Virus record (IMG/VR): IMGVR_UViG_3300035681_000002
Coordinates: 62,001 to 126,000 of that record
Length of the DNA stretch: 64,000 nucleotides
Strand: one strand, 5' to 3'
From: a virus
In this document: in pieces, positions 12,778-60,744 of the stretch
How positions within the stretch are numbered: position 1 is the stretch's first letter
Layout of the letters: each line of letters begins with the position of its first letter
Translations under genes and position numbers: made by a program
The notes under the pieces: generated by a model
What the model saw: only the letters and a program-made list of their open reading frames with translations
What the model was told of the DNA's origin: nothing
Databases searched by the model: none

Positions 12778-14073
12778 ATGAGTAATTCAGATGGTTCGAT
12801 TGAGCAGCAAATGAAGGCATCGTTGAGCAAGGCATCGGGCATCCCCATTGCCACCCCTCCCATTGCTGCCCCAGTTGCCCCTGTCGCCACACCTTCAATC
12901 GCACCTCCAGTTGCAGCCCCCGGCGTTGTGCACATAGGTAACATCGCTGCAGCATTGAATCCTGCTGCCCATAAGCAAGCGGCAACCCAAGTAGTGGTAA
13001 ACGATGCCTTTCCTTATGATGTCGCATTTAACATGGCATTTCTGGGGTCTGGGCAGGGCGGTGCTCGCTTAGCCTCCAGCTTCTGGTCTTTAGGCTATAG
13101 ACGAGTGGCCTTATTCAACACCGCAGAGAGCGACTTCCAAGGATTACCCGATGAGATTCAGCGACATACGCTGCAATTGGGTGGAGCTGCAAAAGATGCG
13201 AGGTTTGCGGAACAAGCAATAAATGGACACGAAGAGGAAATCTGGGATCTGTTGCAACGCTCGTGGGGCAACGATGTGGACTATGGCCTAATCTGTGTAG
13301 GTTTAGGTGGTGGTACTGGCTCTGGTACTAGTGGTAAGCTGGTGCAAGTGGCTAGAGAGTACTTAGAGTCTAAGGGCAAGCCACCTCGAGTTGGAGTGAT
13401 AGCTTCAATTCCGGCTTTTACGGAAGGTCAGCAAGTATGTCGTAATGCAGTTACATCTTTCCAAAGACTAATGGAGCTCAAAGTAAGCCCATTAATCTTG
13501 ATTGACAATGCCCGCATTAACCAATTGTACCGCCCAGGCATGGCACAGCTGTACAATGTGGCTAATAGCACAGTCAGTCAGCTATTCCATTTGTTTAACC
13601 AATTGGCTGCGGTACATAGCCCTTTAATCACCTTTGATCGCAGTGAGCTAGCTCAGTTGCTGGATCATGGTATTTGTGTGATGGGTGCAGCTAGCTTACA
13701 AAACATTACAAGTCCTGCAGACATTTCTGCAGCGATTAGAGATCAGCTCACTAACAATGTGTTAGCTGAAGTAGATCTGAAGCAAGGAACTAAGGGTGCT
13801 TGTCTGTTTGTGGGAGATCAAAACCACTTAGACAACCTTGGTTTGGAATACTTCGATGCAGGGTTCACGCAAATGAATCGTACATTGAAGGGTGGTACTA
13901 GTGTAGTGCATAGGGGTGTGTACATTGGCTCATCGCCCGGTTTACAAGCCTATGCTATGATTAGTGATCTTAAGCCACCCTTGCCTACCTTGGCTAAGTT
14001 GGCAAAAGAAGCTAACATTTCTAAAAGTCAGCTGACCAGTGGGTTAGCTCAGTTCCTCGGTGTGAATGATTAA
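12778..14073 (+). CDS. Tubulin/FtsZ-superfamily GTPase with Pro/Ala-rich N terminus
   Basis: Tubulin/FtsZ GTPases polymerise into filaments; in some large phages they position the replication compartment. Here the GTPase begins at about residue 85 with FLGSGQGGARLA (G-box 1), the signature GLGGGTGSGTSG lies at about 176-187, and the T7-like loop appears as TFDRSELAQLL near 285, keeping acidic residues for GTP hydrolysis. About 80 N-terminal residues are a Pro/Ala-rich linker (ATPPIAAPVAPVATP) not usual in FtsZ or PhuZ. At 431 aa it is longer than PhuZ (about 315). The last 30 residues look like a helical tail. It is unlikely to be a host FtsZ copy because the surrounding residues differ strongly. 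Confidence 0.85.
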   Translation: MSNSDGSIEQQMKASLSKASGIPIATPPIAAPVAPVATPSIAPPVAAPGVVHIGNIAAALNPAAHKQAATQVVVNDAFPYDVAFNMAFLGSGQGGARLASSFWSLGYRRVALFNTAESDFQGLPDEIQRHTLQLGGAAKDARFAEQAINGHEEEIWDLLQRSWGNDVDYGLICVGLGGGTGSGTSGKLVQVAREYLESKGKPPRVGVIASIPAFTEGQQVCRNAVTSFQRLMELKVSPLILIDNARINQLYRPGMAQLYNVANSTVSQLFHLFNQLAAVHSPLITFDRSELAQLLDHGICVMGAASLQNITSPADISAAIRDQLTNNVLAEVDLKQGTKGACLFVGDQNHLDNLGLEYFDAGFTQMNRTLKGGTSVVHRGVYIGSSPGLQAYAMISDLKPPLPTLAKLAKEANISKSQLTSGLAQFLGVND

Positions 14074-22761: not shown

Positions 22762-22811
22762 TTGTTTAATCATGGATAAAGATTTAGCTAGACAACTCCC
22801 CAAAGGGGGCT

Positions 22812-22862
22812 AAAATAATCTTCGGTTATACAAACTATGTTTCCCCTTAGGAGGAGAATATT
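22812..22862 (+). repeat. Duplicated 51-bp leader, copy 1
   Basis: This 51-bp block, immediately before the ATG at 22863, matches 23659-23709 at 46 of 51 positions. It includes GGTTATACAAACTATG, which contains a -10-like TATACA/TATG stretch, and the Shine-Dalgarno GGAGGAGA. The shared block probably drives or tunes expression of both genes in the same way. Confidence 0.75.
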
Positions 22863-23660
22863 ATGTCAGCATCAGATTTGAAACAAAGCGGAACTAAATG
22901 GGATGGATATGACAATGCAGATAAATGCTGTGTATGCAGTGATAAATTTCCTCGAGTTGACAGCTATCACCGGGACAAAGATGAGGGGGAGCAGTGTTAC
23001 TACTGCCAAGATATAGTATGCAGAGATTGCATAGAGCACGATGCTGCTCATATCATAGGTGAGTATAAATTAGAAATTGAAACAATATGCAAGTCTTGTT
23101 GCGCTTACGAAGTCGTAGTGCGTGTAGCTAAAGAGCAAGCCGAAGAAGATGATTCTATAGCTCGTGCTGAAGACGCAGATATCGAGGATTCTATTGAAGC
23201 TGCCAAAGAGCAAGCCGATATCGAGGATTCTATTGAAGCTGCCAAAGAGCAAGCCGAAGAAGATGATTCTATAGCTCGTGCTGAAGACGCAGATATCGAG
23301 GATTCTATTGAAGCTGCCAAAGAAGATGAAATGATAGAGAAGATTGAGCTAGCTACTCTTTACGAGTTGAGACGCAGAAAATTAGAGCATTTGAAAAGTA
23401 TGGAAGCCAAAGCTCGCAAAAAATCAGACAAAGAACATAAAAACCACGCAGTACTTAAATCAATGTTAGATATTGAAAAAGCAGAAGTGGCAAGGATAAA
23501 AGCTTCTATTAATGAGTATGCAGGTGACATGTATGAATTTTATGTAGAAGCAGAAAGAGTAGCAAATCAAATGCTAAAGATTGCAGTTGGTCCTTTTACA
23601 GAGGATAGATACACTCGATATATTGCTACATTTAAAAATAGTAAATGGCATAAGAAATAA
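22863..23660 (+). CDS. Zinc-finger protein with acidic tandem repeats
   Basis: The N terminus (about residues 20-80) has Cys pairs CCVC, CYYC, CRDC and CKSCC with a histidine between, like a RING/FYVE-type treble-clef zinc finger. Residues 90-155 consist of acidic repeats (EEDDSIARAEDADIEDS and EAAKEQ). A charged coiled coil follows to about 240. The repeats are recent: the DNA units are 75, 39 and 75 bp with near-identical sequence. The leader is shared with the next gene. It may be a scaffold or protein-interaction factor. Function unknown. Confidence 0.75.
   Translation: MSASDLKQSGTKWDGYDNADKCCVCSDKFPRVDSYHRDKDEGEQCYYCQDIVCRDCIEHDAAHIIGEYKLEIETICKSCCAYEVVVRVAKEQAEEDDSIARAEDADIEDSIEAAKEQADIEDSIEAAKEQAEEDDSIARAEDADIEDSIEAAKEDEMIEKIELATLYELRRRKLEHLKSMEAKARKKSDKEHKNHAVLKSMLDIEKAEVARIKASINEYAGDMYEFYVEAERVANQMLKIAVGPFTEDRYTRYIATFKNSKWHKK
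23130..23318 (+). repeat. In-frame tandem repeat, 75-39-75 bp
   Basis: Copies at 23130-23204 and 23244-23318 are 75 bp and the middle unit 23205-23243 is 39 bp, a shortened version with the same ends. All are multiples of three, so the reading frame is kept. Copy number probably varies between relatives. Confidence 0.85.
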
Positions 23661-23709
23661 AATAATCTGTGGTTATACAAACTATGTTTCCCCCTAAAAG
23701 GAGAATATT
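23659..23709 (+). repeat. Duplicated 51-bp leader, copy 2
   Basis: Second copy of the leader before the ATG at 23710. Its five differences from copy 1 fall at the spacer after AATCT and in the stretch before the Shine-Dalgarno. Confidence 0.75.
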
Positions 23710-24105: not shown

Positions 24106-24768
24106 ATGAGTATTACTATTGTTTCTGCTGTGATGAATAGGGCTGACATGCTGCGGGTCAGCCTAATGTCTTGGTTGAAGTATAAAGAGGTTACTAAAAT
24201 CATTGTGGTAGATTGGTCGTCCAGCGACTTATCTGCTGATTTTGTAAAGTCTTTTTGTCTTCTAGACAATAGGATCGAATTTAAGCGAGTTGATAACAAA
24301 GACACATACCATGTGGCCGCAGCTTGGAATATTGCTTTTTCACATGTCGATACCGAGTTTGTTTTAAAAATGGATGTCGATTACATCTTAAATCCTTACT
24401 TTAATTTTTTTGATATTCATAAGCTTAGTGATAAAGATTTCTTTACTGGTGACTACAGGATGGAGGTGTTTGACAATAAATTAGGTTTTATGAAATATCT
24501 TCATGGTTTATTGTACATTAGAACTGCTGATTTTAGGGCTGTTGGTGGGTTTGATGAGCGTTTTGTTAATTATAGTTTTGAGGACACTGACATTTACGCT
24601 AGGTTAAGGAAACAGGGGCTGACTCATCGGTTTATTGATGCAAAAAAGTTATCTGTTTATCATAACCCACATGGTAACGATAAGCGGACTGAGAATTTTG
24701 TCGAGAAGGATGTTAATAAGTCATTGCGTACAAATGGTGATATGTTTCGTAAAAATAACGCTAACTAA
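24106..24768 (+). CDS. GT2-type glycosyltransferase
   Basis: The N-terminal segment SITIVSAVMNRADMLRVSL and IIVVDWSSSDL match the GT2 donor-binding strands, KMDVDYIL is the DxD motif, and VGGFDERFVNYSFEDTDIYARLRKQG is the acceptor-site stretch with ED seen in galactosyltransferase-like GT2 enzymes. The complete motif set suggests an active enzyme. 220 aa. Confidence 0.85.
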   Translation: MSITIVSAVMNRADMLRVSLMSWLKYKEVTKIIVVDWSSSDLSADFVKSFCLLDNRIEFKRVDNKDTYHVAAAWNIAFSHVDTEFVLKMDVDYILNPYFNFFDIHKLSDKDFFTGDYRMEVFDNKLGFMKYLHGLLYIRTADFRAVGGFDERFVNYSFEDTDIYARLRKQGLTHRFIDAKKLSVYHNPHGNDKRTENFVEKDVNKSLRTNGDMFRKNNAN

Positions 24769-24785
24769 GCTACCCTTGCGTTTAA

Positions 24786-24838
24786 TCCCTATGCTATTTA
24801 AACTAAAACCAATGAAGTTAGTTTAAATAGCATAGGGA
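24786..24838 (+). promoter_or_regulatory. Perfect 21-bp hairpin that sequesters a ribosome site
   Basis: The arms at 24786-24806 and 24818-24838 are exact inverted complements of 21 bases with an 11-nt loop. The right arm ends in AGGGA, the only Shine-Dalgarno for the ATG at 24847, so the RNA hairpin would hide it. No T-run follows, so termination is less likely. It could make translation depend on which promoter is used or on a ribosome or protein that melts the stem. Confidence 0.8.
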
Positions 24839-24846
24839 AATGCATT

Positions 24847-25161
24847 ATGTTTTACAAAACCGCAAAGCTACGCAATATGCTTAACCGCTTAGAAAAACAA
24901 GCTATTGCCAGCACTAGAGAAAAACGTGCCATTGCTGCATTGTTAGGCCCCTTATTTAGAGCGGCATCTCGTGCCCCGCTTACTACTGCAGCTGCTGGTC
25001 TAGGTGGTATGGCGGGCTATGAATTTGCTCGGCAACCTAAGAAGCTTGCTAATCCAGCTTTGCTCCCTAATGCAAGTACTTCTCCACCTCCAAACACTGA
25101 GGTTGGGTTAGGGAAGACATCTTTAGATAAACAAATCCTCAGTGCATTGTTGCGCCGTTAA
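24847..25161 (+). CDS. Small membrane/virion-type protein, 104 aa
   Basis: Its ribosome site lies within the hairpin just upstream. The N terminus repeats Lys-x-Ala motifs (YKTAKL, LEKQAIA, EKRAIA). A hydrophobic segment follows (APLTTAAAGLGGMAGYEF) that could be a membrane helix, and the C terminus is proline-rich then charged. It fits a virion-associated or injected small protein. The next gene begins 23 nt later. Confidence 0.7.
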   Translation: MFYKTAKLRNMLNRLEKQAIASTREKRAIAALLGPLFRAASRAPLTTAAAGLGGMAGYEFARQPKKLANPALLPNASTSPPPNTEVGLGKTSLDKQILSALLRR

Positions 25162-25184: not shown

Positions 25185-28100
25185 ATGCCATTCAAATCTG
25201 ATGCTCAGCGTAAGTTATGTTACCTTCTCAAAGGCAAAGGTCAGGCAGGTTCGTGGGACTGCTCTGAATGGTCCGAAGCTACAGGAGGTAAGAAGTTGCC
25301 AGAGCATGTAGAAGACCAAACAGAGAAGAAGGCACTAGGAATCACCAATAAGCTGAAAGGCGGAGTTGGTGATAATAAGAATCCTGCGGACTTAGATAAA
25401 GCAGAGTTAAATTCCGGAATTAAAGAAGAAAAAGAACATACTAATGATACGGATGTAGCTACAGAGATTGCGGTGGATCATCTTACCGAAGAGCCTAAGT
25501 ACTACTCAAAAATGGAAAAGGTTGAAAAGAAAAGCAGTGTTCAGACTAGCCAGCCTTCAAGATTTGCTGCGTTGTTAGCTAAGGTAGCAGCAGTACGGCC
25601 GGGCCTTTGGGCCAACATAAGAGCTAAGAAGCGCAGGGGCGAAACTACTGCCAAGCCTGGGGACGAAGACTATCCAGATTCTAAGAACTGGGACAAGGTA
25701 ACGGCGATCTCTGAGAAGAAGGCGCAATGCTGGGAAGGTTACGAACGAGTACCAGGCACTAAAGCTTTAACTCCCGGATCTTGTCGGCCTACAGGTAAGA
25801 AGAAAGAGGCAGAGAAGCAAAGCGGTGCAGCTTGGCAAACTGCTGAAGGTAAGAATCCCGAAGGCGGTTTAAATGATAAAGGTCGAGCCAGCTTAAAGGC
25901 ACAAGGACACGACATCAAACGACCTCAGCCCGAAGGTGGATCTCGTAAAGATAGCTTCTGTGCACGCATGGGTGGTATGAAGGCTAAGCTCACTTCTAGT
26001 GCAACGGCTAATGATCCCGATAGCCGCATCAACAAAGCACTGCGTAAGTGGAAGTGTGGCAGTGATGCATTTGAACAAATTGCTTTATTAGCTAAATCAG
26101 CGATGGATTCTGTTTATTCTCCGCAGCAGCCACAACAGCCCCAGCAGCAGTGGATGCAGCAACCACAACAACAACCTATCTTTGTAATCAATTCTGCTCC
26201 TTCTCAATCTGGGATAATGACAGGACTTGGTAACTTGACTGCGGCCGGAGGCGGTATTGCAGGTGCTGGCTCTTTAGCGGTGAATTACGGGGCGAACAAA
26301 GGCATTCCAGCTCTGCAGCGGTATGACCAGTTTGAACCTAATTTGTTGAACCGAGTGGATCAATTTAATACGAAAATGAATTCTCCAACATTAAATGCTG
26401 CTGAAAAATTGAAAGCATATGTTGAGCATGGTACGGACTTAATTCAACAACCTGTATGGACGAGGCCCGATGGTACTAAACTTATTGGGCGCGATATGAT
26501 TGAACAGGTTTACAAGAATCCTATTACCACAATGATAGCTGACGGATCTCAGCCTAATATGAAATGGAGTCCTTCACTATCAGAGCACTACGGACAATTC
26601 AATAAAGGGCCAGCTGCAGCTTATGCACAGTTGGGTGCAGAACTTCTCGGAGATGATGCGATACAGGGACCGATGTTTCAGCGACAATTTGCGCTACACG
26701 AGGCAGCTCGAAACAACAAAATTTCGCTGTTAGGAACAGCAGCTGCGCGTAACGATGTCAATACAGCAAAAGCTGTAGCAGACAGGGCAGCTATAGCTCG
26801 CAAAATGGATACCATGCAGGGGAAAGTAAAGTCTAAAGTGGAGAACCTTATTGAAAGGTTACGAGGTAAAGGGTTGCTGGGCGAAAGGGAAGATGCATGG
26901 GCTTCTAAGTTTAGACCTAGATTGCAGCTGCGTCATGATAGAATGAATGAGTTTAGTCAGAAGTCCCTAGCACCTCAAGACGAGATAATAAATAAGTTAA
27001 ATAGCCGAGGAGATTTTATAAAAAATAAGCTAATTTCTAACGGCAACAACCTATCCGGTGATGCTTTAAAACAGCATTTAACTGGGCTAGCGGATGCATC
27101 TAAAGAACGCATACTTAACTCAATAGCTCCAGTTTTACCTGGGGATAAGTATGGGCTTACACGTAATGCAATGCAAGACGAGCTGCTTCAACTAGCCAAA
27201 TCTAAGCCAGAATTTGCAAGCAGTCTAGGCAGAGGACTCGAGAGTCTGAGCAGAGATCAACAGTTAAAGCTTGTGGATTATGCGCATAGAACTCCGCTCG
27301 GACAGAGTATGACTAGTTCCTTTGGGGATCCAACATCTTTAGCATTTAGAACAAATTCTTATGGTAATTTAAGCAACGCTATTGCTGCTCCTAAAAGAAT
27401 TTTAAATTGGGGAGTTTCAAATCTAGGAAGATTAGCAGCTAAGTCTAGGATAGGTGCAATGTTATCCTTACCCGTAGTAGGGAGCGGGCTGGCAATGCGT
27501 TATCTAGGTGGTAGTCAAGATGCTGCAAATTCAGAAGCAGCTACCCAAAGTATGGTAGACAAGATACGCAAAGCTCTCAACTCAAATGTGTTACCTGCTC
27601 TTACTCCCGAGGCTACTCCCTACGCTAGTCTTCCAAAATCCGGAATTTTACCTTCTCTGATTGGTAAGCCTTACATAGGTAAACAATCGAGTGATTATAT
27701 AGCTGCATTAGCTAAGCAGGCAGCGACTCAAGCTGGAGGATCTTACTTAAACAGAGTAGTAGCTTTAAATGAACAGGATACAGCTAGAATGAAAGATCAG
27801 GCTGCAAGAGTTAGAGCTGCCTCAGGTATTCCTAACCCAACTGGGAATGGTACGCATAGCTGGGGTGGGCATGTATTCCCAGATAGAGTTGAAAACCCTA
27901 CTTACAACTTTACTCCCCCTGCAGCTACTCCACCAATACCCTATACTGGGCTTGGCTCGCAGTATCTAAACGGAGCAGAAGGCAGGTTACCATATCCTTT
28001 GCTTAGGACTGCCCCAGCGCAATCAGGTCAAGCTTTCACTCCAAAAGGCGGTACTGTGCCTCCTTCTGCACCTATTAGTAGCCTTCGTGACCATCCTGCG

Positions 28101-29063
28101 TTTAGACGCAATGGTCTTAGTAATAGCTCCATGTTTAAAGAAGACTTTAATGATATGGCTACAGATAGGACTAAGGTGGAGCAGCTACAAAACGCTATAG
28201 GTGGTGTTGGTAATGGCACGCACCAAGGAGTTTTTAGCGGAGGTAAAATTCAACCCGATACTGCTACTTTTACACCCAAAAACTTACCTTCAACTAATTT
28301 GATTGACTCTAATCCTGAAGCTTCACCCCCTTCTAATTTTGCGCCAGAAACCCCCGGCTATTTAACTCCCGGAAATGCTGCAGCAGCTAATCTTGGCTCT
28401 TCAATATTGAATGGGGCTCAGTATGGTGGCATGGGTAATATTCTAACTGGGGCCTCTACCTACGATTCAGGAACTCAAAAAACAAGGAATGGTAAGAACT
28501 TCTATCGTGGTGATTTGCAGACACAACCCGGCCCTACTAATGTGACAACAAACATTGATGCGAACACTGGTGCATTTAACCAGCAGCGTGGTGCTTCTGG
28601 TAATTCACGAGCAAGCGCAACTAGCGGAAGTTTTAGAACTGCTACACCTAAGCCCGCAAATACTTGGAAGCCTATAGACATTAGTGGAGAGCGAAGAGAG
28701 AAAGAGAAGCAACTAGGGTTGCCAGAGGGCTCCATGAACGAAGGTGGAGAGCACTATGCTAAAAATGGACCACGCTCTGCCGAACTAGCTAAAGCACCGG
28801 CATCCATTTCTAATACTTATGTTGCACCGCCTGGAGAAGATCCTCAACATACTGCACTCAACAAAGCGATGTTTGACATTAAAAAAGAACAGCGTGTGGC
28901 CCTAGCTAGCGGGAAAACTTGGTCACCTAGCGGTGTTAATATAATTAATCCAGTTAAACCAACTGCTATGGCACAAGCTCCTGCACCTAAGGCTCCTTCT
29001 AACACCTATGCTACTTCTAGGTTTTCTTCCGATCTACCAAGTTGGGCGACTCAAGGAAGGTAA
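25185..29063 (+). CDS. Large virion-type protein, 1292 aa
   Basis: It begins PFKSDAQRKLCYLLKGKG, a motif I associate with phage structural or injected proteins. Many Lys-x-Ala/Ser motifs are spread over the chain (TEKKALG, SEKKAQC, LAKSAMDS, GKQSSDY, LAKQAAT). Residues 305-325 are Gln/Pro-rich, then a hydrophobic glycine-rich segment (GLGNLTAAGGGIAGAGSL), helical parts and long Pro/Ser/Thr-rich low-complexity stretches. Three unconnected DNA-palindrome copies lie in this and the next gene. No enzymatic motif is visible. Likely a tail-tip, internal or ejection protein. Confidence 0.7.
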   Translation: MPFKSDAQRKLCYLLKGKGQAGSWDCSEWSEATGGKKLPEHVEDQTEKKALGITNKLKGGVGDNKNPADLDKAELNSGIKEEKEHTNDTDVATEIAVDHLTEEPKYYSKMEKVEKKSSVQTSQPSRFAALLAKVAAVRPGLWANIRAKKRRGETTAKPGDEDYPDSKNWDKVTAISEKKAQCWEGYERVPGTKALTPGSCRPTGKKKEAEKQSGAAWQTAEGKNPEGGLNDKGRASLKAQGHDIKRPQPEGGSRKDSFCARMGGMKAKLTSSATANDPDSRINKALRKWKCGSDAFEQIALLAKSAMDSVYSPQQPQQPQQQWMQQPQQQPIFVINSAPSQSGIMTGLGNLTAAGGGIAGAGSLAVNYGANKGIPALQRYDQFEPNLLNRVDQFNTKMNSPTLNAAEKLKAYVEHGTDLIQQPVWTRPDGTKLIGRDMIEQVYKNPITTMIADGSQPNMKWSPSLSEHYGQFNKGPAAAYAQLGAELLGDDAIQGPMFQRQFALHEAARNNKISLLGTAAARNDVNTAKAVADRAAIARKMDTMQGKVKSKVENLIERLRGKGLLGEREDAWASKFRPRLQLRHDRMNEFSQKSLAPQDEIINKLNSRGDFIKNKLISNGNNLSGDALKQHLTGLADASKERILNSIAPVLPGDKYGLTRNAMQDELLQLAKSKPEFASSLGRGLESLSRDQQLKLVDYAHRTPLGQSMTSSFGDPTSLAFRTNSYGNLSNAIAAPKRILNWGVSNLGRLAAKSRIGAMLSLPVVGSGLAMRYLGGSQDAANSEAATQSMVDKIRKALNSNVLPALTPEATPYASLPKSGILPSLIGKPYIGKQSSDYIAALAKQAATQAGGSYLNRVVALNEQDTARMKDQAARVRAASGIPNPTGNGTHSWGGHVFPDRVENPTYNFTPPAATPPIPYTGLGSQYLNGAEGRLPYPLLRTAPAQSGQAFTPKGGTVPPSAPISSLRDHPAFRRNGLSNSSMFKEDFNDMATDRTKVEQLQNAIGGVGNGTHQGVFSGGKIQPDTATFTPKNLPSTNLIDSNPEASPPSNFAPETPGYLTPGNAAAANLGSSILNGAQYGGMGNILTGASTYDSGTQKTRNGKNFYRGDLQTQPGPTNVTTNIDANTGAFNQQRGASGNSRASATSGSFRTATPKPANTWKPIDISGERREKEKQLGLPEGSMNEGGEHYAKNGPRSAELAKAPASISNTYVAPPGEDPQHTALNKAMFDIKKEQRVALASGKTWSPSGVNIINPVKPTAMAQAPAPKAPSNTYATSRFSSDLPSWATQGR
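25410..25421. promoter_or_regulatory. Dispersed quasi-palindrome, coding copy
   Basis: AATTCCGGAATT, a perfect palindrome inside the 1292-aa gene, coding for Asn-Ser-Gly-Ile. Confidence 0.45.
27635..27649. promoter_or_regulatory. Dispersed quasi-palindrome, coding copy
   Basis: AAAATCCGGAATTTT inside the 1292-aa gene, coding for Lys-Ser-Gly-Ile-Leu. Confidence 0.45.
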
Positions 29064-29068
29064 ACTAA

Positions 29069-30589
29069 GTGTTTAAACGCTCCAGTAATACCTTTGACGC
29101 AATTGCCTATTTAGCAACGCAAGCTGCTAAGTTGAGTTTCACCAAGCGTGCAGATTTAAATTCTGGAATTGAGCTGCAACCTCATCAAAAAAGAGTTGTA
29201 CGCAATGTGCAAAATCAGCTTGCTACTGAGGACAAGGTTAGATTGCTACTGTATCAAGGGCTGGGCTCGGGTAAGACCTTAGGTGGTTTAGCGGCTGCTG
29301 AAAGCTCGAAGCTCCCCTACACCGCAATCGTACCCGCTGCTCTCCGTACCAATCTAAGGAAAGAGCAAGAGAAGTTCATCGACCAAGATACGGCAGTGCC
29401 TAGCAGCATTATGAGCCATACTGGGCTAGGCAGAGGACTTCCTATAGCGAATCCTAATTCGTTGCTTATTGATGAAACACATCGGTTTAGAAACGCTCAA
29501 TCTGCGCAGACGCAGAATTTGTTAGACGCAGCTAGAAAAGCAAAACAAGTGGTGATGCTAAGCGGTACTCCTATTGTGAACTCGCCTGCGGATTTTGCAG
29601 TGCCTTACAGCGTGCTTACCGGCAAGGATACGACTCCAGAAGAGTTTAGTGCTAGGTATGTAGACAATGACCCACAACCTTCGCTGTATCGCCGTTTCTT
29701 TAATCTAAAGGCACCCGATCCGGGTTTAAAGAATGTAGAGGAGTTAAAGAACAACTTAAGAGGCAAGGTAGATTACTTTGCACCAGCTAAGCCTCAAGCA
29801 GAGATCAATAGGGAAGATGTGATTACAGAGATGACTAGGGATCAGACGGACCTAAACTCACAAATGTATGGTAAGCTACCCGCCTTGCTCAAATGGAAGT
29901 TGCAATTAAACTACCCGCTGAGTGATGCAGAGTCTAAGAAGATGGTTAGCTTTTTGACTGGGCCAAGACAGCTGGGTTTATCTACTAGCACATTCACACA
30001 AGACAAAGCTGACCCTATGGCTGCGTTCAACAGTTCCCCAAAGCTAACAGAAGCATTTAGAAGAGTTAATGAGTTGGTTAAAAAGGATCCCAAGGGTAAA
30101 GCTCTCATCTTCTCTAACTTTATTGAGTCAGGACTGAACCCTTATCAAGCTGCGTTGGACAAAGCTGGTATCCCTGCAGCGTCCTTCACAGGTGCACTAT
30201 CAGACAAACAACGAAAGAAGCTGGTAGACGACTACAACTCAGATAAGCTGAAGGTAGCGTTGCTTGGTCCGTCTGGTACTGAGGGACTTTCGTTTAAGGG
30301 TACGAAGCTTATGCAGCTATTGGATCCGCATTGGAATAATGTTAGGTCTGAGCAGAGTGAAGGTAGAGGATTAAGGTATGACAGTCATGCCCACCTTCCT
30401 CTTGCAGATAGGAAAGTAAAGATAGAGAGATATATAGCTAGAACAGCCCCAAGTCGATTAAAGTCTCTACTACGCTACATCGGAATTAAAGTTAATCCTT
30501 TATCTGCTACCGATGATTACCTCATTGCGGCGGGTAATCGTAAGCAGCAGCTAAATGACAAGTTTCTAGATTTGCTTAAGGAACTTTAG
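29069..30589 (+). CDS. SNF2-family helicase/ATPase
   Basis: GTG start with AAGGAAGG 8 nt upstream. Superfamily 2 motifs are in order: GLGSGKT (I, about residue 65), LLIDETHRF (II, DETH, about 133), MLSGTPIVNSP (III), ALIFSNF (IV), GTEGLSFKG (V) and SEQSEGRGLRYD (VI). SNF2-type enzymes move along DNA or remodel nucleoprotein. The N terminus carries ATQAAKLSFTKRAD, a Lys-x-Ala/Ser-type stretch like those of virion proteins, and the gene lies between giant virion genes, so it may be packaged and act at genome entry. A host-infection-stage helicase is the alternative. Confidence 0.85.
   Translation: MFKRSSNTFDAIAYLATQAAKLSFTKRADLNSGIELQPHQKRVVRNVQNQLATEDKVRLLLYQGLGSGKTLGGLAAAESSKLPYTAIVPAALRTNLRKEQEKFIDQDTAVPSSIMSHTGLGRGLPIANPNSLLIDETHRFRNAQSAQTQNLLDAARKAKQVVMLSGTPIVNSPADFAVPYSVLTGKDTTPEEFSARYVDNDPQPSLYRRFFNLKAPDPGLKNVEELKNNLRGKVDYFAPAKPQAEINREDVITEMTRDQTDLNSQMYGKLPALLKWKLQLNYPLSDAESKKMVSFLTGPRQLGLSTSTFTQDKADPMAAFNSSPKLTEAFRRVNELVKKDPKGKALIFSNFIESGLNPYQAALDKAGIPAASFTGALSDKQRKKLVDDYNSDKLKVALLGPSGTEGLSFKGTKLMQLLDPHWNNVRSEQSEGRGLRYDSHAHLPLADRKVKIERYIARTAPSRLKSLLRYIGIKVNPLSATDDYLIAAGNRKQQLNDKFLDLLKEL
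29158..29170. promoter_or_regulatory. Dispersed quasi-palindrome, coding copy
   Basis: AAATTCTGGAATT near the helicase N terminus, coding for Asn-Ser-Gly-Ile. Confidence 0.4.
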
Positions 30590-50694: not shown

Positions 50695-53600
50695 ATGCTT
50701 CCACTTTCGTCTAATTTGTTTGATACTGCTAACATCTCGTTGCTAGGCGGGGTGCCACAACAGGCACAGCTTCTACAAACAATGCAGCCTGCAGCTCCAT
50801 TGCCTAGTTTTCATGAATTTCACGACACCAAAAAAGTCAAATCTATTATTTATGACAGAGTGTTGCAAGCAGCACAGCAAGTACAACCTATATCTAATGA
50901 CCGACATACGCTTAGTTTAACTGGAGTAAACTATCGTGATGGGGATACCGCCAGCAAGCAGGAGCAGAAAGCTGCTATTCTTAATGGTAGGTCTCAAGGT
51001 CGTAGGTTAGAAGGAACTTGGGAGTTAATGGATAATGCAACACAGCAAGTGATAGCCTCCAAGAAATCAGTTCTTGCCACTGTCCCACACTTAACGGAGC
51101 GTGGTACCTTTATTAACAATGGCACTGAGTACATTTTAAGAAATCAACAGCGGTTACTGCCCGGAGTTTACACCCGCACACGGAACAATGGTGAAATTGA
51201 ATCCCATGTTAATGTGATGCCTGGAAAAGGCGTATCACAGCGTTATTTCTTAGACCCTGAGAAAGGCAAATTTAAGCTTAAGGTTGGGCAAGCTTCAGTT
51301 GGATTAACTCCTTTGTTAAAAGCTATGGGAGTTACCTCGGAGCAGGCGCAGGAAGCTTGGGGTAAAGATCTATTCGCTTCTAATTACAATTCGGATGATG
51401 CATCTGAGTATACAAGACTTAAAGGCATGTTTCTTTCTTCTAAAGAACTAGCTGAACCAGAAGAAAAACAAAAACAAGCATTGCTTGCTAAGTTTTCTAA
51501 GATGGAAATGGATCCCGAGGTAAATCGTCGCACGCTGGGAAACCCACATTCAGGTGTCACACTAGACACATTGATGGACATTACCAAAAAGCTGATAAAG
51601 GTTAATAGAAAGGAAGCGGATCCGGATGATAGAGATGCACTGCATTTTCAGCAGTTTGTAGGTCCAGAAGATTTGTTTTCAGAGCGTATTGCACGAGATA
51701 AAGGCGGGGTTCGCCGTAACCTACTGTGGAAGATGTCAGGCAAAGGTAATTTGGATTCGATGCCGTCTTCAGCATTAGAAAAACAGTTAAAAAGTGCTTT
51801 GCTCGGTAGCGGGCTAGGGCAAGCGATTGAAGAAATTAATCCTACAGACATTTATGAAAAGACAATGTCTGTTACTCGAGTGGGTGAGGGTGGTATTGGT
51901 TCTATGGATGCAATTCCCATGGAATCCAGAAATGTACAGTCAAGCATGTTGGGTTATGTGGATCCTGTGCGTACTCCCGAGTCGGGTCGTGTAGGGGTGG
52001 ACACATATCTAGCTAGGGGATCTCGTAAAGGAAGCGATGGTAAGCTCTATGCTCAGTTTAAGGATCTGCGTAGCGGGGAAATGACTTTTAAAACTCCTCA
52101 AGATGTAGCAGACTTAACCGTTGGTTTTCCCGGAAGCCAAGATGGTGAAGATGCCCGTGTAGTGGCGATGCGTGGCGGTAAGATGTTACATGTACCTAAA
52201 TCAAGCATTGATTTAGAGCTTCCTGACATGGAAGAAGCATTTAATCCTCTTTCTAATGTCATCCCCATGAAGAGTCAGGTAAAAGGTCAGCGATTAGTGA
52301 TGGCATCTCGTATGACCACACAAGCATTACCTTTAGCTTCTCCTGAAGCTCCTTTGGTACAGTCTGCAGTTCCGCACACAGGCGGTAAACAAAGTTATGA
52401 AGAGCTATACTCATCTGGGATGGGAGCTTTAAGGGCAACACAAGGAGGTACAGTTACCTCGGTGACGGATGAAGAGATTAAAGTGCGTAATGCAGACGGA
52501 ACAGAAGAAACGCACGAACTTTATCATAATTTTCCTTTCAATCGTAAAACCTTTTTTCATCAAACTGCCGCAGTTAAACCCGGTGACACATTTAGACCAA
52601 ATCAGTTATTAGCTAGCTCTAACTTCACGGACAGTACTGGAACAATGGCTTTAGGCCGAAATGCTCGCACTGCCTATATCCCATGGCAGGGTAAAAACTT
52701 TGAAGATGCGGTTGTTATCTCAGAAAGCTTTGCAAAGAAGACAGCTTCTTCCCATATGTACCAGCATGAGTTGGAAGTGGATGACAAAACACAAGTCGGT
52801 AAAAGACAATTTATTCAAGCATTTCCAGCTACCTTTAAAAAAGACATATTAGCGAACATAGACGATCAAGGAGTGGTCAAGCCTGGTACAGTAGTTAACT
52901 TTGGAGATCCTTTGGTATTGGGGATCACACAAAAGGAAAATGTATACAACAAAGTGCATAAGAAGGGTCAATCTGGATTCAACGACGCAGCAGTACTTTG
53001 GCAGCATCACGATAGTGGTGTTGTTACTGATGTGGTAATGGGTAAGAAAGGTCCAGTCGTTGTAGTTAAGGCAGAATCGCCAACGCAGGTTGGAGATAAG
53101 CTGTCGGGTCGTTATGGGGATAAAGGTGTTATTGCTGACATCATCCCAGATAGCGAAATGCCCCATGATTCAAATAAACAACCTTTTGAAGTGCTTCTTA
53201 ATCCTCTTGGGATTATTAGCCGAACCAACCCAGCTCAAATGTCTGAATTGTTTCTAGGTAAAATAGCAGCTAAGCGTGGCATGCCTATTAAGGTGGATGA
53301 TTTTGACACTAAAAAAGATATGACTCAATGGGTTATGCAAGAATTAGCTAAGGAAGGTTTGTCGGACTTAGAAGACATTATAGACCCATCTAAAGATCAA
53401 AAAATTAAAAATGTGGCAACGGGTAATCGTTTCTTCATGAAACTGCATCACACCTCTGAGTCTAAAGGACAAGGTAGAAGTGGTGGAGCTTACACGATGG
53501 AAGATGCACCGGCTAAAGGTGGTGTTGAAGGTTCTAAGCGTATTGGGCTAATGGATGCCAACGCATTACTTTCTCACGGAGCTACGGACACACTGCAGGA

Positions 53601-55161
53601 CATTTTTACAATTCGTAGGCAGAAGAATGATGATTATTGGATGCAGTACATGTCTGGGTATAACCCTAAGGTTACTAAAGTTCCTTTTGCTTATCAGAAG
53701 TTTGTAGCCCAGCTGCAATCTGCTGGAGTTAATGTGGTTAAGCAAGGAACGCAGACTCAAATCATGGCATTGACGGACAAGGACATTGACAACTTAGCTG
53801 GGGATCGTGAGCTTAGCAGCGCAGACGGAGTAGAATGGGGAAATCAGCTTAAAGAGATTAATGGTGGCTTATTTGACAAGGCTAAAACTGGTGGACACGG
53901 GGGCACTCGTTGGTCGTTTATGCGTTTGCACGAACCTTTACCTAACCCAGTAATGGAAGAACCTATTCGTCATATGCTTGGGCTAACACAGAAAAAGTTT
54001 GAAGGCATTGTGGCAGGTACAGAATTTTTAGAGAAATATGGCACCGGTACGAAAGCTTTACAAAAGGCATTAGAGAATCTTAATCCAGAAGCAGAAATCC
54101 CTAAAGCTCGAGCTATGATAGCCGCAGGGCGAGGGGCGCAACGAGATGCCGCAATTCGTAAGCTTAGCTATTTTAAATCTGCACATAAACTAGGGCTGAA
54201 GCCTGCGGACTACATGCTGACCAAAGTGCCAGTTCTTCCTCCAATGTTTCGTCCAGTTAGCTTGATGAGCAATGGCATGCCATTGGTTAACGACGCTAAT
54301 CACCTTTATAAAGAACTGTTTGAGGCTAATCAGAATTTTAGCAAAATGCAGCAAGAAGTAGGGGAAGAAGCTTCGGGATCGGAGCGTCTTTCTACCTATC
54401 AAGCATTTAAAGCGGTGACTGGGTTAGGTGATCCTATTAGTGCAAAAAGCCAAGAGAAGAATGTTCGTGGGGCTTTAAAAAATGTGTTTGGTGCAAGCCC
54501 TAAGTTCGGGGTTGTACAACGCAAACTGATTTCGTCTACGGTAGACAATGTAGGTCGAGCGGTAATTACTCCAAATCCGGAATTGGACATGGACTCGGTA
54601 GGGCTGCCCGAAGATAAAGCATTTAAGGTCTATGAGAAATTTGTTACTAGAAGATTGGTGCGACAAGGCATGTCGATGCTGCAGGCTCGTACTCAATTAG
54701 AAGATAAGACTCCGGTAGCACGCAAATTCTTGCTTGAAGAGATGGAGCATCGTCCTGTATATATTAGTCGTGCTCCTGTTTTGCATAAGTTTGGGATTAT
54801 GGCGATGAGGCCAAGATTGACTAAAGGGAATACCCTACAAGTAAGTCCTTTGATCGTGAAGGGATTTGGTGCTGACTTTGATGGCGACACCATGAACTAT
54901 CATGTGCCAAGTACGGAAAAAGCTAGGCAAGAAGCATTTGACCGCTTATTGCCAAGTCGTAATCTTTTTAGTGTGGGTGATATGAAGTCTGTAATGCATG
55001 CCCCTGCTAATGAGTACATTGGTGGTTTATTTATGGGTACAGATCCTTCTCGTAAATCTGATCGACCATTAAGGATTTTCCAGAATATACAGGATGTAAG
55101 ACGAGCGCATGCACGTGGAGATATTTCGATCAACGATCCCGTACGAATTTTAAATGGTTAG
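50695..55161 (+). CDS. Phage RNA polymerase: beta fused to the N-terminal half of beta'
   Basis: The 1488-aa protein carries beta landmarks first: GKNFEDAVVISE (about 662, as in bacterial YNFEDA), GDKLSGRYGDKGVI (about 800, GDKMAGRHGNKG) and LLNPLGIISRTNPAQMSEL (about 835). It then shows beta' landmarks: TKVPVLPPMFRPV (about 1178), ISRAPVLHKFGIMAMRP and GADFDGDTMNYHVP (about 1392), which keeps the three catalytic aspartates. The remaining beta' half lies in another gene. It lacks alpha and any sigma, as in phiKZ-type enzymes. The fusion has the same break as cyanobacterial RpoC1/RpoC2. ATG is in a weak ribosome context. Confidence 0.9.
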   Translation: MLPLSSNLFDTANISLLGGVPQQAQLLQTMQPAAPLPSFHEFHDTKKVKSIIYDRVLQAAQQVQPISNDRHTLSLTGVNYRDGDTASKQEQKAAILNGRSQGRRLEGTWELMDNATQQVIASKKSVLATVPHLTERGTFINNGTEYILRNQQRLLPGVYTRTRNNGEIESHVNVMPGKGVSQRYFLDPEKGKFKLKVGQASVGLTPLLKAMGVTSEQAQEAWGKDLFASNYNSDDASEYTRLKGMFLSSKELAEPEEKQKQALLAKFSKMEMDPEVNRRTLGNPHSGVTLDTLMDITKKLIKVNRKEADPDDRDALHFQQFVGPEDLFSERIARDKGGVRRNLLWKMSGKGNLDSMPSSALEKQLKSALLGSGLGQAIEEINPTDIYEKTMSVTRVGEGGIGSMDAIPMESRNVQSSMLGYVDPVRTPESGRVGVDTYLARGSRKGSDGKLYAQFKDLRSGEMTFKTPQDVADLTVGFPGSQDGEDARVVAMRGGKMLHVPKSSIDLELPDMEEAFNPLSNVIPMKSQVKGQRLVMASRMTTQALPLASPEAPLVQSAVPHTGGKQSYEELYSSGMGALRATQGGTVTSVTDEEIKVRNADGTEETHELYHNFPFNRKTFFHQTAAVKPGDTFRPNQLLASSNFTDSTGTMALGRNARTAYIPWQGKNFEDAVVISESFAKKTASSHMYQHELEVDDKTQVGKRQFIQAFPATFKKDILANIDDQGVVKPGTVVNFGDPLVLGITQKENVYNKVHKKGQSGFNDAAVLWQHHDSGVVTDVVMGKKGPVVVVKAESPTQVGDKLSGRYGDKGVIADIIPDSEMPHDSNKQPFEVLLNPLGIISRTNPAQMSELFLGKIAAKRGMPIKVDDFDTKKDMTQWVMQELAKEGLSDLEDIIDPSKDQKIKNVATGNRFFMKLHHTSESKGQGRSGGAYTMEDAPAKGGVEGSKRIGLMDANALLSHGATDTLQDIFTIRRQKNDDYWMQYMSGYNPKVTKVPFAYQKFVAQLQSAGVNVVKQGTQTQIMALTDKDIDNLAGDRELSSADGVEWGNQLKEINGGLFDKAKTGGHGGTRWSFMRLHEPLPNPVMEEPIRHMLGLTQKKFEGIVAGTEFLEKYGTGTKALQKALENLNPEAEIPKARAMIAAGRGAQRDAAIRKLSYFKSAHKLGLKPADYMLTKVPVLPPMFRPVSLMSNGMPLVNDANHLYKELFEANQNFSKMQQEVGEEASGSERLSTYQAFKAVTGLGDPISAKSQEKNVRGALKNVFGASPKFGVVQRKLISSTVDNVGRAVITPNPELDMDSVGLPEDKAFKVYEKFVTRRLVRQGMSMLQARTQLEDKTPVARKFLLEEMEHRPVYISRAPVLHKFGIMAMRPRLTKGNTLQVSPLIVKGFGADFDGDTMNYHVPSTEKARQEAFDRLLPSRNLFSVGDMKSVMHAPANEYIGGLFMGTDPSRKSDRPLRIFQNIQDVRRAHARGDISINDPVRILNG
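54573..54585. promoter_or_regulatory. Dispersed quasi-palindrome, coding copy
   Basis: AAATCCGGAATTG in the polymerase gene, read as Asn-Pro-Glu-Leu, a different frame from the copies at 25410 and 29158. Confidence 0.4.
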
Positions 55162-56811: not shown

Positions 56812-59800
56812 ATGTTGAATACGACCGTTGGACAACTGTTAATTAATGATGTCCTTCCGGAAGAGTTGAGAGACTCTCATCGTGTGCTAGATAAAAAAGG
56901 GCTGCAATCTTTATTACAGCAAGTGGCACAACAACACCCAGAGCGTTATAAAGACATTTCTTTTAAGCTAAGTGGTCTTGGCCAAAGCATGGCTCAAGAG
57001 CAGGGTGGCATGTCTTTTGGTCTTCGCCATTTGCAAGTAAGCAAAGCGGCATTAGCTTCTCGCCAGAAAGTTAGAGCAACACTTACCAACATTCTATCTG
57101 ACGAATCTTTGACAGATCAGCAGCGAAATGAGCAGATTATTCGTGCCGTTGGTAAAGAAAGTCCAGAACAACAAAAACAAGTACTTGCAGAGGCATTGCT
57201 AAATAAGAATCCGCTTGGGATGCAGGTAATGTCAGGTACGCGCGGTAAGTCTATGAATTTAACTAGTTTGTTAGGTTCAGACATGCTGTATTCGGATCAG
57301 CGGGATGATGTGATTCCAATCCCTGTACTGCGTAGCTACAGCGAAGGGTTGTCCCCTGCCGAGTATTGGGCCGGAACCTATGGGGCACGTAAAGGTATTA
57401 TGGCAACTAAGTTTGCCACACAAGATGCCGGATTTTTTAACAAACAACTTAATCAAACTAGCCATAGATTAGTGGTAACCGGAGAAGATGCCGAAGAGGC
57501 AGAAGATGCACCTATTCGAGGATTGGTAGTAGACACTGATGACGCAGATAACGAAGGAGCACTGCTAGCTCGGGCTGTTGGCCCTTATGCTCGAAACACT
57601 CCCCTTACTCCGAAAATACTGAATCATTTAAAACGGCTTGGCACATCTAAAATCTTAGTACGATCTGCCCTCGTAGGTGGATCTCCCGATGGTGGTGTTT
57701 ATTCTAGGGATGTAGGTATTCGGGAAACTGGAAAGCTTCCAGGGCTTGGCGAGCAAGTTGGGTTACAGGCTGCACATGCTTTAAGTGAACCGATTAGCCA
57801 AGGTCAGCTATCTGCAAAACATTCGGGTGGAGTGGCAGGTCAAGAAAAAGCTGTCAGCGGTTTCCAGTATTTAAACCAATTAGTGCAAGTTCCAAAGAAG
57901 ATGCAAGGCGGGGCAGCGCATGCACTAAAAGATGGAGTAGTACAGCGTATTGAGGAAGCTCCTGCGGGTGGTAGCTATGTAACCATTGGAGATAAACAAC
58001 ATTATGTAGGGGCTGGGTTTGATCTTAAAGTAAAAAAAGGAGACGAGGTAGAGGCTGGGGATGTAATTAGCTCAGGAATTCCTAACCCTGCTACTATTAC
58101 AGAGCACAAAGGGGTAGGCGAAGGAAGACGCTATTTTGTTAATGAGTTTCGTAAGGCAATGGGTGACAGCGGAATGTTCGGGCACAGACGAAACATAGAG
58201 GTATTAGCTCGAGGTCTTATTAACCATGTAAGGCTGACAGAAGAAACAGATGACCATGTACCTGACGATATTGTTCCTTACTCTACGCTTGAGCACACTT
58301 ACAAACCACGAGAAGACCACCAGCGATTAACTCCTAAGCGAGCACTAGGTCAATATCTTGAACGACCTATACTGCATTACACTATTGGTACTAAAATTCG
58401 ACCTTCTATGCTTAAGAATTTTCAAGATTTTGAAATCAATGAAATTCCAGTACACAAGAACCCTCCGCCATTTGAGCCCCACATGGTTCGTGGTTTGTAT
58501 CAAATGCAGCATGATCCTGACTGGATGACTCAAATGTATGGGTCTGGTTTAAAGAAAAGTTTCTTAGATTCTGTGACTCATGGGGCTATCAGCGAAGAAC
58601 GAGGTACAAGCTTTGTTCCTAGTTTAGCAATGGGTCTTGATTTTGGAGAAGGTAAAGACCATGCGGTAATAAAACCTAAACCTAGCTATGAGCTACCTGC
58701 AACTCCTACTCCTCCTGCATTAAAGCCTATAGCACCTAGCAACGCTCCTTTTTTTGGCGGTCGTTTTACCCCTGGCCAAACTAAGCTTGCGATGGACTCT
58801 GTTCCAGATGTTTCTAAACCACCTTCCGTTTCTAAGCCTCCTGCCGTCTCTAAACCGATACCCAATACCCCTGCTACAGAATATATGGGCGGACCAGCCC
58901 CAAGGAATGGGTCAAATTCCCCAGAACATATGGAAGGCGGGGTTGCCCCTCGTAATAATACTGAACCTCATCCTTATACCCCAGCAGCTGACCTTAGCCC
59001 AAATATCATGCCAGCTCTGCCACCTACCCCTGCACCTACTCCTGCGCCTGCACCTACTCCTGCCCCCGCCCCATCACTGTATGACACATACAAAGATACT
59101 GACGCAAAGGGCGATCAGGGCACTTCTGCTTTAGCCCCTCCGCCCGCATCTACACCTACCCCAACCTCAAATTCGGATCAATTTAATCACTTTAATTATT
59201 TGATGCAAAATAATTCTAATTTTGCAGGGCAAGCTGGGCAGATGTTAAATCAAAATCCTTTAATGGGGCTTATGATGTTAGGTGGGATGGCTGGTGGTGG
59301 TAATTTTCAACAGCTATTTAATTCGAGACCCTCACAAGGATTAGCTACAAGTAATAATAATGGGTTGTGGGGTAATATGCTTAATATGTTTGGGGGTGGT
59401 GCCCAAAACAACAGCGGACAAGGACAACAAAATTTAAACCAAAGCCCGCAATCTAATGCACCTAGCAGCAGTCCTACCCCAGCTGCAAACCAAGGTGGGA
59501 TGTGGAATAGCATGCTTAATATGTTTGGTGGCGGTTCCCAGCCTAGTGCCCCTACAGCATCTGCTCCTACAGTAGACTCGCCTACAGAGGAAAAACCAGC
59601 AGCCCGCTCGGGTCCAGATACAGGTACAGCATTTGGGTATGCTGCTCCAATTGGCTACAATGGTATAAAAAATACAATTATGGCACCTAAACCACCTGCA
59701 TTTCCTACCACTCCGCCTCCTATACCCGGAAGCCCGCCCCCCTTTCCTACAACTCCACCACCTGTGCCTGGTAGCCCCCCGCCATTGCCTAAAGGTCCAC

Positions 59801-60744
59801 CCCCATTACCTAAAGCACCTGCAGGTTATGTAGGTAAAGGATTTTCAGCACTTACTAAAGGAGTAGGAAAAGCTCTGCCATTCCTTGGTGCAGGTATGGA
59901 AGCTTATAGCGTTGGTTCAGACATAGTAGATAAAGGTTGGGATAATACAACCAATGATGCAGCACAAAACTGGAGAGACATTCTTTCGTTTAAAGATGGG
60001 CTGCATACAGCATGGCAAGCCCCTGCACAAGCTCTTAACCCAGTGGCTAATGCGCAGCTAATAGCTGGGGGTGCAACTCAGACAGCGGGGATGCTTGGGG
60101 AGCAGGCTGGGATGGCCGGTGAAGCTATTCGTGACAAAGTAACTGGAACTGATGCTCGTTCCCGTGCCTCGGTGGCAGACAAAACGCAAGTTAATGCAAT
60201 GGAAGTAGAAAAGCAAAAAGGTCTAGAAGCACAATTAGCTTTGACTAAACCGCAGAATTTAGAAGGTACTGCAGATTTAAAAGCACAAATACAAGACGCT
60301 AAAACTAGACAAGGAAATACAGCGGATGAAACAGCTAACTGGAGACTAGGCCAACAAAATTGGTTTGGTAGTGGCGGACACAAATTCCGTGATGCCATGC
60401 AAAATTCGGTTACAGCTGCGGACACAGAACTAGCAGAGTTAAAAGCTAAGGGGGAGCTAGACGCAGGGGGGCAAGCAAGGCAGGAGCAGTTATTAAATAG
60501 ACAGGCACAGCGTAAGCAGATGATGGGTACTTACGAGCGAGAGGGTGGTTCTTCAGGTAAGGGCTTGTTTAGCACGGACATGCGTAATCGAGTTAATGGG
60601 CTTAAAGAAAACATTGTGGCAGTTGAAGCACAACTTCGAGATACTTCTCTTCCGCCAGAACAAAGGGCGAAACTAGAATCCCAATTGAGAACTAACAATG
60701 AAGATCTAGCGGAGTATCGAGGATGGGCAGAAAGTTCTAAATGA
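56812..60744 (+). CDS. Phage RNA polymerase beta' C-terminal half with long extension
   Basis: Residues about 130-215 hold the bridge helix/trigger-loop region: GTRGKSMNLTSLLG, GLSPAEYWAGTYGARKG and TQDAGFFNKQL (compare SGARGS, GLxxxEYF, HGARKG). GLQAAHALSEPISQGQLSAKHSGG (about 320) matches [21 protein letters not shown]. The core ends near 620. The remaining 690 residues are not polymerase: a TKLAMDS motif (about 657), Pro/Ala/Gln/Asn-rich stretches and helical, coiled-coil-like ends. Such a tail is unusual and may link the enzyme to the virion. Confidence 0.9.
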   Translation: MLNTTVGQLLINDVLPEELRDSHRVLDKKGLQSLLQQVAQQHPERYKDISFKLSGLGQSMAQEQGGMSFGLRHLQVSKAALASRQKVRATLTNILSDESLTDQQRNEQIIRAVGKESPEQQKQVLAEALLNKNPLGMQVMSGTRGKSMNLTSLLGSDMLYSDQRDDVIPIPVLRSYSEGLSPAEYWAGTYGARKGIMATKFATQDAGFFNKQLNQTSHRLVVTGEDAEEAEDAPIRGLVVDTDDADNEGALLARAVGPYARNTPLTPKILNHLKRLGTSKILVRSALVGGSPDGGVYSRDVGIRETGKLPGLGEQVGLQAAHALSEPISQGQLSAKHSGGVAGQEKAVSGFQYLNQLVQVPKKMQGGAAHALKDGVVQRIEEAPAGGSYVTIGDKQHYVGAGFDLKVKKGDEVEAGDVISSGIPNPATITEHKGVGEGRRYFVNEFRKAMGDSGMFGHRRNIEVLARGLINHVRLTEETDDHVPDDIVPYSTLEHTYKPREDHQRLTPKRALGQYLERPILHYTIGTKIRPSMLKNFQDFEINEIPVHKNPPPFEPHMVRGLYQMQHDPDWMTQMYGSGLKKSFLDSVTHGAISEERGTSFVPSLAMGLDFGEGKDHAVIKPKPSYELPATPTPPALKPIAPSNAPFFGGRFTPGQTKLAMDSVPDVSKPPSVSKPPAVSKPIPNTPATEYMGGPAPRNGSNSPEHMEGGVAPRNNTEPHPYTPAADLSPNIMPALPPTPAPTPAPAPTPAPAPSLYDTYKDTDAKGDQGTSALAPPPASTPTPTSNSDQFNHFNYLMQNNSNFAGQAGQMLNQNPLMGLMMLGGMAGGGNFQQLFNSRPSQGLATSNNNGLWGNMLNMFGGGAQNNSGQGQQNLNQSPQSNAPSSSPTPAANQGGMWNSMLNMFGGGSQPSAPTASAPTVDSPTEEKPAARSGPDTGTAFGYAAPIGYNGIKNTIMAPKPPAFPTTPPPIPGSPPPFPTTPPPVPGSPPPLPKGPPPLPKAPAGYVGKGFSALTKGVGKALPFLGAGMEAYSVGSDIVDKGWDNTTNDAAQNWRDILSFKDGLHTAWQAPAQALNPVANAQLIAGGATQTAGMLGEQAGMAGEAIRDKVTGTDARSRASVADKTQVNAMEVEKQKGLEAQLALTKPQNLEGTADLKAQIQDAKTRQGNTADETANWRLGQQNWFGSGGHKFRDAMQNSVTAADTELAELKAKGELDAGGQARQEQLLNRQAQRKQMMGTYEREGGSSGKGLFSTDMRNRVNGLKENIVAVEAQLRDTSLPPEQRAKLESQLRTNNEDLAEYRGWAESSK

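Follow-up and report, generated by a model that had tools for sequence, protein, structure and literature searches.

Our results show that an uncultured phage carries a perfect 21-bp hairpin directly in front of a 104-aa gene, that the hairpin buries the Shine-Dalgarno sequence (SD) of this gene when the leader is folded, and that SD-hiding hairpins recur at the same operon border in relatives. The best reading of these observations, which we hold at slightly better than even chances, is that the hairpin silences read-through RNA by sequestering the SD, and that the gene is translated from a transcript with an internal start. The window, the whole 64,000-nucleotide stretch that we analysed, covers bases 62001–126000 of a 178,753-base virus record (here G000). 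Unless stated otherwise, positions refer to the plus strand of the window.

The two arms of the hairpin (24786–24806, TCCCTATGCTATTTAAACTAA, and 24818–24838, TTAGTTTAAATAGCATAGGGA) are complementary at 21/21 positions and enclose an 11-nt loop (24807–24817, AACCAATGAAG). The original prediction of a perfect 21-bp stem is thus borne out. The same is true for its claim that the right arm ends in AGGGA: this putative SD lies at the base of the 3′ arm (24834–24838), and 8 nt separate it from the ATG (24847–24849) of the 104-aa ORF (24847–25161), the putative controlled gene. The interval originally given, 24786–24862, also takes in the first 16 nt of that gene. The stem, which is separated by 17 nt from the upstream stop codon, has G-C pairs at 6 of its 21 positions and is followed by AATGCATTATG, which contains no T-run. 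In minimum free energy folds a possible lower helix extends it, TGCGTT (24777–24782) pairing with AATGCA (24839–24844), but some folds lack this helix. A search of the window against Rfam returned no match.

A stem of this length is exceptional. The next-longest perfect stem in the 178.7-kb record measures 15 bp, and within the 64-kb window just one other perfect stem of at least 11 bp was found (12 bp). Dinucleotide-shuffled versions of the window (n=12) had longest stems of 9–13 bp, and the analytic chance expectation for stems of at least 21 bp is 3.4e-7 per window. The RNA from 24740 to 24900 folds at −42.5 kcal/mol (z = −6.5).

Folding lends good support to the claim that the SD is buried. 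For RNA with a 75-nt leader, the predicted probability that the SD core is unpaired is 0.003. It rises to about 0.62 in RNAs that start at most 45 nt upstream of the ATG and therefore lack the 5′ arm. In the closest relative, G001 (IMGVR_UViG_3300027782_000034), which is mostly 80–90% identical to G000 along much of the genome, the full leader also gives 0.003 despite an imperfect stem; without the 5′ arm the SD is unpaired at about 0.5, and the AUG is then paired. Such closed starts are rare. G000 has 162 gene starts whose SD could be used for this comparison; at eight of them the SD openness is 0.02 or less, and three of these eight also have a fold of −20 kcal/mol or lower, the focal fold being the most stable of the three. 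By the same two measures 2 of 170 starts qualify in G001, and the orthologous start is among them. These ranks refer to the SD alone; averaging over SD and start codon left the focal gene outside the top 20. A second candidate of this kind is a 1157-aa gene whose SD, AGAGGT, lies within a hairpin in both genomes (L102:11596 in G000; minus strand of L113 in G001), with unpaired probabilities of 0.009 and 0.005.

The hairpin stands at a border between exchangeable and fixed genes. The upstream gene, which ends the exchangeable module, encodes a family-2 glycosyltransferase (24106–24768; Pfam Glyco_tranf_2_2, 3.9e-14). At this place G001 has a UDP-glucose/GDP-mannose dehydrogenase gene (UDPG_MGDP_dh_N, 2.1e-31), preceded by an HNH endonuclease gene. 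The leader between stop codon and ATG (24769–24846) is kept in G001 despite the differing flanking genes. The 104-aa protein matches neither Pfam nor PHROG, and a search of viral contigs and six relatives yielded no relatives of it; its counterpart by position in G001 is a 212-aa protein that shares mainly the segment KTAKLR...EKRAIAALL. Next in the operon come a DUF5661/DUF6321 protein gene (25185–29063, beginning MPFKSDAQRKLC) and, as context, an SNF2-type helicase-like gene (29069–30589).

Several other features of these genomes deserve mention in their own right. Many proteins, including those starting at 18296, 24847 and 36994, share a short N-terminal tag (LRxMLxRLEKxA, LIKQA), and successive genes in relatives (L004:5021–6966; L006:2142–3982) carry the tag MNRLEKAAxFGxxMGKxA. 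The shared tag is perhaps a virion-targeting signal or a cleaved leader peptide. Two neighbouring genes of 265 and 117 aa have near-identical leaders (22790–22862 and 23640–23709) of the form GGTTATACAAACTATGTTTCCCC...AGGAGAATATT-ATG, and units resembling EDDSIARAEDADIEDSIEAAKEQA are repeated within the 265-aa ORF (23060–23330). A Tubulin/FtsZ-family protein, possibly PhuZ-like, is encoded at 12778–14073 (Pfam Tubulin, 8.6e-11). Dense short repeats occupy 173.5–174.4 kb of G000 (L106:7483–8400), with many matches to G001:1–630.

How the leader has changed between the two closest genomes is informative. A blastn block at 24768–24850 is 91.6% identical to G001 and is surrounded by otherwise non-homologous sequence. 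Two stretches are identical in both genomes: 38 nt that run from the upstream stop codon through the whole 5′ arm, and the final 19 nt (CATAGGGAAATGCATTATG), which begin in the lower 3′ arm and reach the ATG. All changes are confined to the loop and the loop-proximal half of the 3′ arm; as a result, the G001 stem has one mismatch and one bulge in its right arm, both uncompensated. Since 31–39% of the four-fold sites in three neighbouring genes differ between G000 and G001, the invariance of these 38 and 19 bases is far from neutral, and on this comparison the leader is conserved more strongly than neutral evolution would allow. The 5′ arm is under stronger constraint than the strand it pairs with, which suggests a possible second role as DNA. 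An invariant 5′ arm facing a 3′ arm that drifts on its loop side would fit a candidate promoter in the 5′ strand. The leader occupies a single place in G000 and in G001, without other copies in either. Patterns made from the arms, the upstream leader and the SD region hit only G001 and one chance match (L099) among the viral contigs.

More distant relatives have other hairpins at the same operon border. We call the leader of G000 and G001 form 1 and the leaders of G002, G005, L125 and G004/G007 form 2. These four leaders, from five contigs, form hairpins that are unrelated in sequence to form 1 and hide an AGGAG in their 3′ arm, ahead of the MPFKSD gene of that operon. Where it was scored on AGGAG, the SD is unpaired with a probability of 0.00–0.01. 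In all of these genomes the DUF5661 orthologue immediately follows a glycan or methyltransferase-like gene, and in G002, G004, G005 and G007 the DUF5661/DUF6321 gene adjoins the hairpin directly. Compared with shuffled sequences, the hairpins of G004/G007 are strong (z about −4) and those of the G002 type modest (z about −0.8 to −1.6). The form-2 stems are either short or interrupted. The opening of the SD on loss of the 5′ arm, clear for the G000 window, is weaker here: about 0.28 in G002/G005 and 0.07–0.34 in G004, depending on the start point. RNAalifold detected no pair changed on both sides in the form-2 alignment; an exchange seen by eye (GTT/AAC to GAT/ATC) depends on the alignment and was left uncounted. 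The form-2 motif GAATAYATAGCTTCYGTNGA occurs in one further contig, L145, inside coding sequence. The HNH_3 endonuclease gene of G001 (L092:3321–4142), part of the exchangeable module upstream of the hairpin, has an end, TACGAATACATAGCTTCTGTTGA, that resembles the start of form-2 leaders.

The original prediction had proposed to look for the stem in relatives. Six other contigs retain a buried SD at this operon border. The stem is imperfect in G001, form 2 is unrelated to it in sequence, and a strong hairpin was not found before the most distant orthologue, in G006. The recurrence of hairpins at this border is suggestive, although with a base rate of a few per cent for any one gene it could also be due to chance.

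How could such a hairpin work? We propose that it is a cis-acting translational off-switch heading a fixed operon that consists of the 104-aa, DUF5661/DUF6321 and helicase-like genes. Read-through from the exchangeable glycan-gene module would produce a long RNA with both arms. In this RNA the stem would fold, AGGGA would be buried and the 104-aa gene would stay untranslated. With 17 nt between the upstream stop codon and the stem, a terminating ribosome is probably too far off to melt the stem and would leave it folded. Only RNA without the 5′ arm would then allow expression. The simplest such transcript would have its start within the loop or shortly upstream of it, driven by a promoter that the conserved leader and 5′ arm encode.

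The phage encodes RNA polymerase subunits of its own. A 1488-aa ORF (50695–55161) joins beta (Rpb2_6) and N-terminal beta′ (Rpb1_1, Rpb1_2) in one chain, and a 1310-aa ORF (56812–60744) encodes the C-terminal part of beta′ (Rpb1_5); G000 and G001 have one Rpb1_2 locus each. A search for Sigma70_r2 turned up nothing beyond a sub-threshold match that is interrupted by a stop. Intergenic DNA shows no enrichment of sigma70-like sites, and the leader contains no sigma70-like match of at least 9/12; the best in the G000/G001 leader scores 7/12 by eye (TTGCGT at 24776, 17 nt, TAAACT at 24799). Motif discovery in 152 intergenic regions revealed no clear promoter motif, and no promoter motif common to the form-1 leaders was found. 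All form-2 leaders have TATAAT in their 5′ half (in G004 as TGATATAAT), without a recognisable −35 box. A start shortly downstream of it would drop the 5′ arm. In characterised phages whose polymerases are multisubunit enzymes, the late promoters escaped bioinformatic prediction (PMC7598289), so the missing motif is no evidence against an internal start. As a separate observation, a palindrome, TTAAAATCCRGATTTTAA, recurs shortly before several genes in both genomes (window 3005, 33956, 48669 and 56767; L102:19713, L104:8765 and others). The sequence TAAATCYRGATTTA, with up to two mismatches, occurs in intergenic DNA nine times in G000 (0.4 expected) and five times in G001 (0.3 expected), and also within genes.

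The hairpin had also been likened to those that keep late genes of T4-like phages silent in early read-through transcripts. SD burial, the structural part of this claim, stands. The timing part is carried by analogy only: the phage has its own beta/beta′ polymerase, sigma70-like sites are not enriched, and the sequence TTTAAATA, which matches the T4 late promoter TATAAATA at 7/8 positions at −25 in the 3′ arm of G000, is not kept in G001 (best match 5/8). By analogy with T4, a timing switch would nevertheless be reasonable.

One could also argue that the hairpin belongs to the end of the glycosyltransferase message, as a terminator or 3′-end protector, and that the SD is buried only because the genes are tightly packed. 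In both genomes many intergenic hairpins lie shortly upstream of the following gene, several of them conserved, and a few gene-end hairpins resemble the focal one in having no clear T-run (window 17098 and L104:8731, for example). Nevertheless, we regard this explanation as unlikely. Most other gene-end hairpins have T-rich tails and their SD outside the stem, which supports the earlier assertion that this is not an ordinary terminator; a GC-rich stem followed by a T-run is absent here, and the terminator scan did not list the hairpin. The focal hairpin is also the longest and the nearest to its start codon, and it holds the SD within the stem. Moreover, the SD-proximal stem, the spacer and the ATG region are invariant, and relatives again place the SD inside the border hairpin. 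A decidedly improbable alternative is that the leader marks a recombination border or a mobile regulatory cassette of the PeSL type, with a hairpin that is incidental or aids gene exchange. The conserved block runs almost exactly from stop codon to ATG between differing genes, an HNH endonuclease gene lies nearby in G001, and AACGCTAACTAAG is common to the 3′ ends of the G000 glycosyltransferase and G001 endonuclease genes. In L125, a methyltransferase-like gene separates the leader from the gene that is its immediate upstream neighbour in G002/G005. PeSLs, however, are dense in shuffled regions (PMC4503421), whereas this leader is single-copy in both genomes. It has neither a strong sigma70 promoter nor a T-run, and its constraint stops at the ribosome-binding site and start codon, as would be expected for the leader of a gene.

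Two further explanations invoke the RNA itself. Long RNAs could be cut by RNase III in the 21-bp duplex, which would open or destroy the SD. From general knowledge, the length and perfection of the stem suit this enzyme; the stem is imperfect in G001, however, and the interrupted or short form-2 hairpins suit it poorly, and we consider processing very improbable. Scarcely credible is an attenuation-like control, in which a ribosome on a tiny ORF inside the hairpin (24791–24826, 11 codons, MLFKLKPMKLV) opens the stem. G001 has a counterpart of six codons (MLFKLN), but no SD precedes the ATG at 24791, and neither length nor sequence is conserved; we consider this ORF weak.

Hairpins that hide ribosome-binding sites are known as phage timing devices mainly from T4 and its kin. 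New here is that the same logic would operate in an uncultured phage with its own RNA polymerase subunits, at a gene-exchange border, and that two unrelated hairpin sequences occupy this one border in relatives. A more far-reaching reading, which we put forward as speculation and think unlikely, is that the hairpin is a translational insulator between a fast-swapped glycan module and a fixed operon, perhaps arisen independently in phages with beta/beta′ polymerases. If this were true, transcription of any newly acquired upstream gene would leave the timing of the downstream genes undisturbed. The off-switch itself, should it be confirmed, would illustrate a general means of shielding a fixed operon against read-through that comes from a constantly exchanged module. 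It would also predict that a search for leaders with the SD in a stem between non-homologous neighbours can reveal such borders.

Hairpins that sequester ribosome-binding sites have precedents in T4 e, soc, 49 and I-TevI (PMC3014915, PMC2988022). As in T4 I-TevI, I-TevII, I-TevIII, segB and Aeh1 mobE, a hairpin conceals an SD that lies about 8 nt upstream of the ATG, and in those systems the active transcript lacks the 5′ arm (PMC2988022). There the controlled gene encodes a homing endonuclease; here an HNH endonuclease is a mere neighbour, upstream of the hairpin in G001. The PeSL cassettes of T4-like phages (Arbiol 2010 and Comeau 2014, as cited in PMC4503421) are likewise short intergenic stem-loops that are kept amid gene shuffling. 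They differ from our leader, which is single-copy, has its SD inside the stem, and lacks a strong sigma70 promoter and a terminator T-run. These data do not establish the phage as T4-like, and any likeness would be one of mechanism. The closest parallel is the leader of T4 gene e (lysozyme), where the SD also lies in the 3′ strand of a stable stem and read-through RNA is expected to be silent. A sequence relation to it is not established, the focal stem is longer and perfect, the T4 late promoter is not kept, the phage has its own beta/beta′ RNA polymerase and the controlled gene is no recognisable lysozyme. Yet in T4-related phages the late promoter of gene e lies within the region that encodes the 5′ strand of the hairpin (PMC3014915), and it is this same strand that is invariant here.
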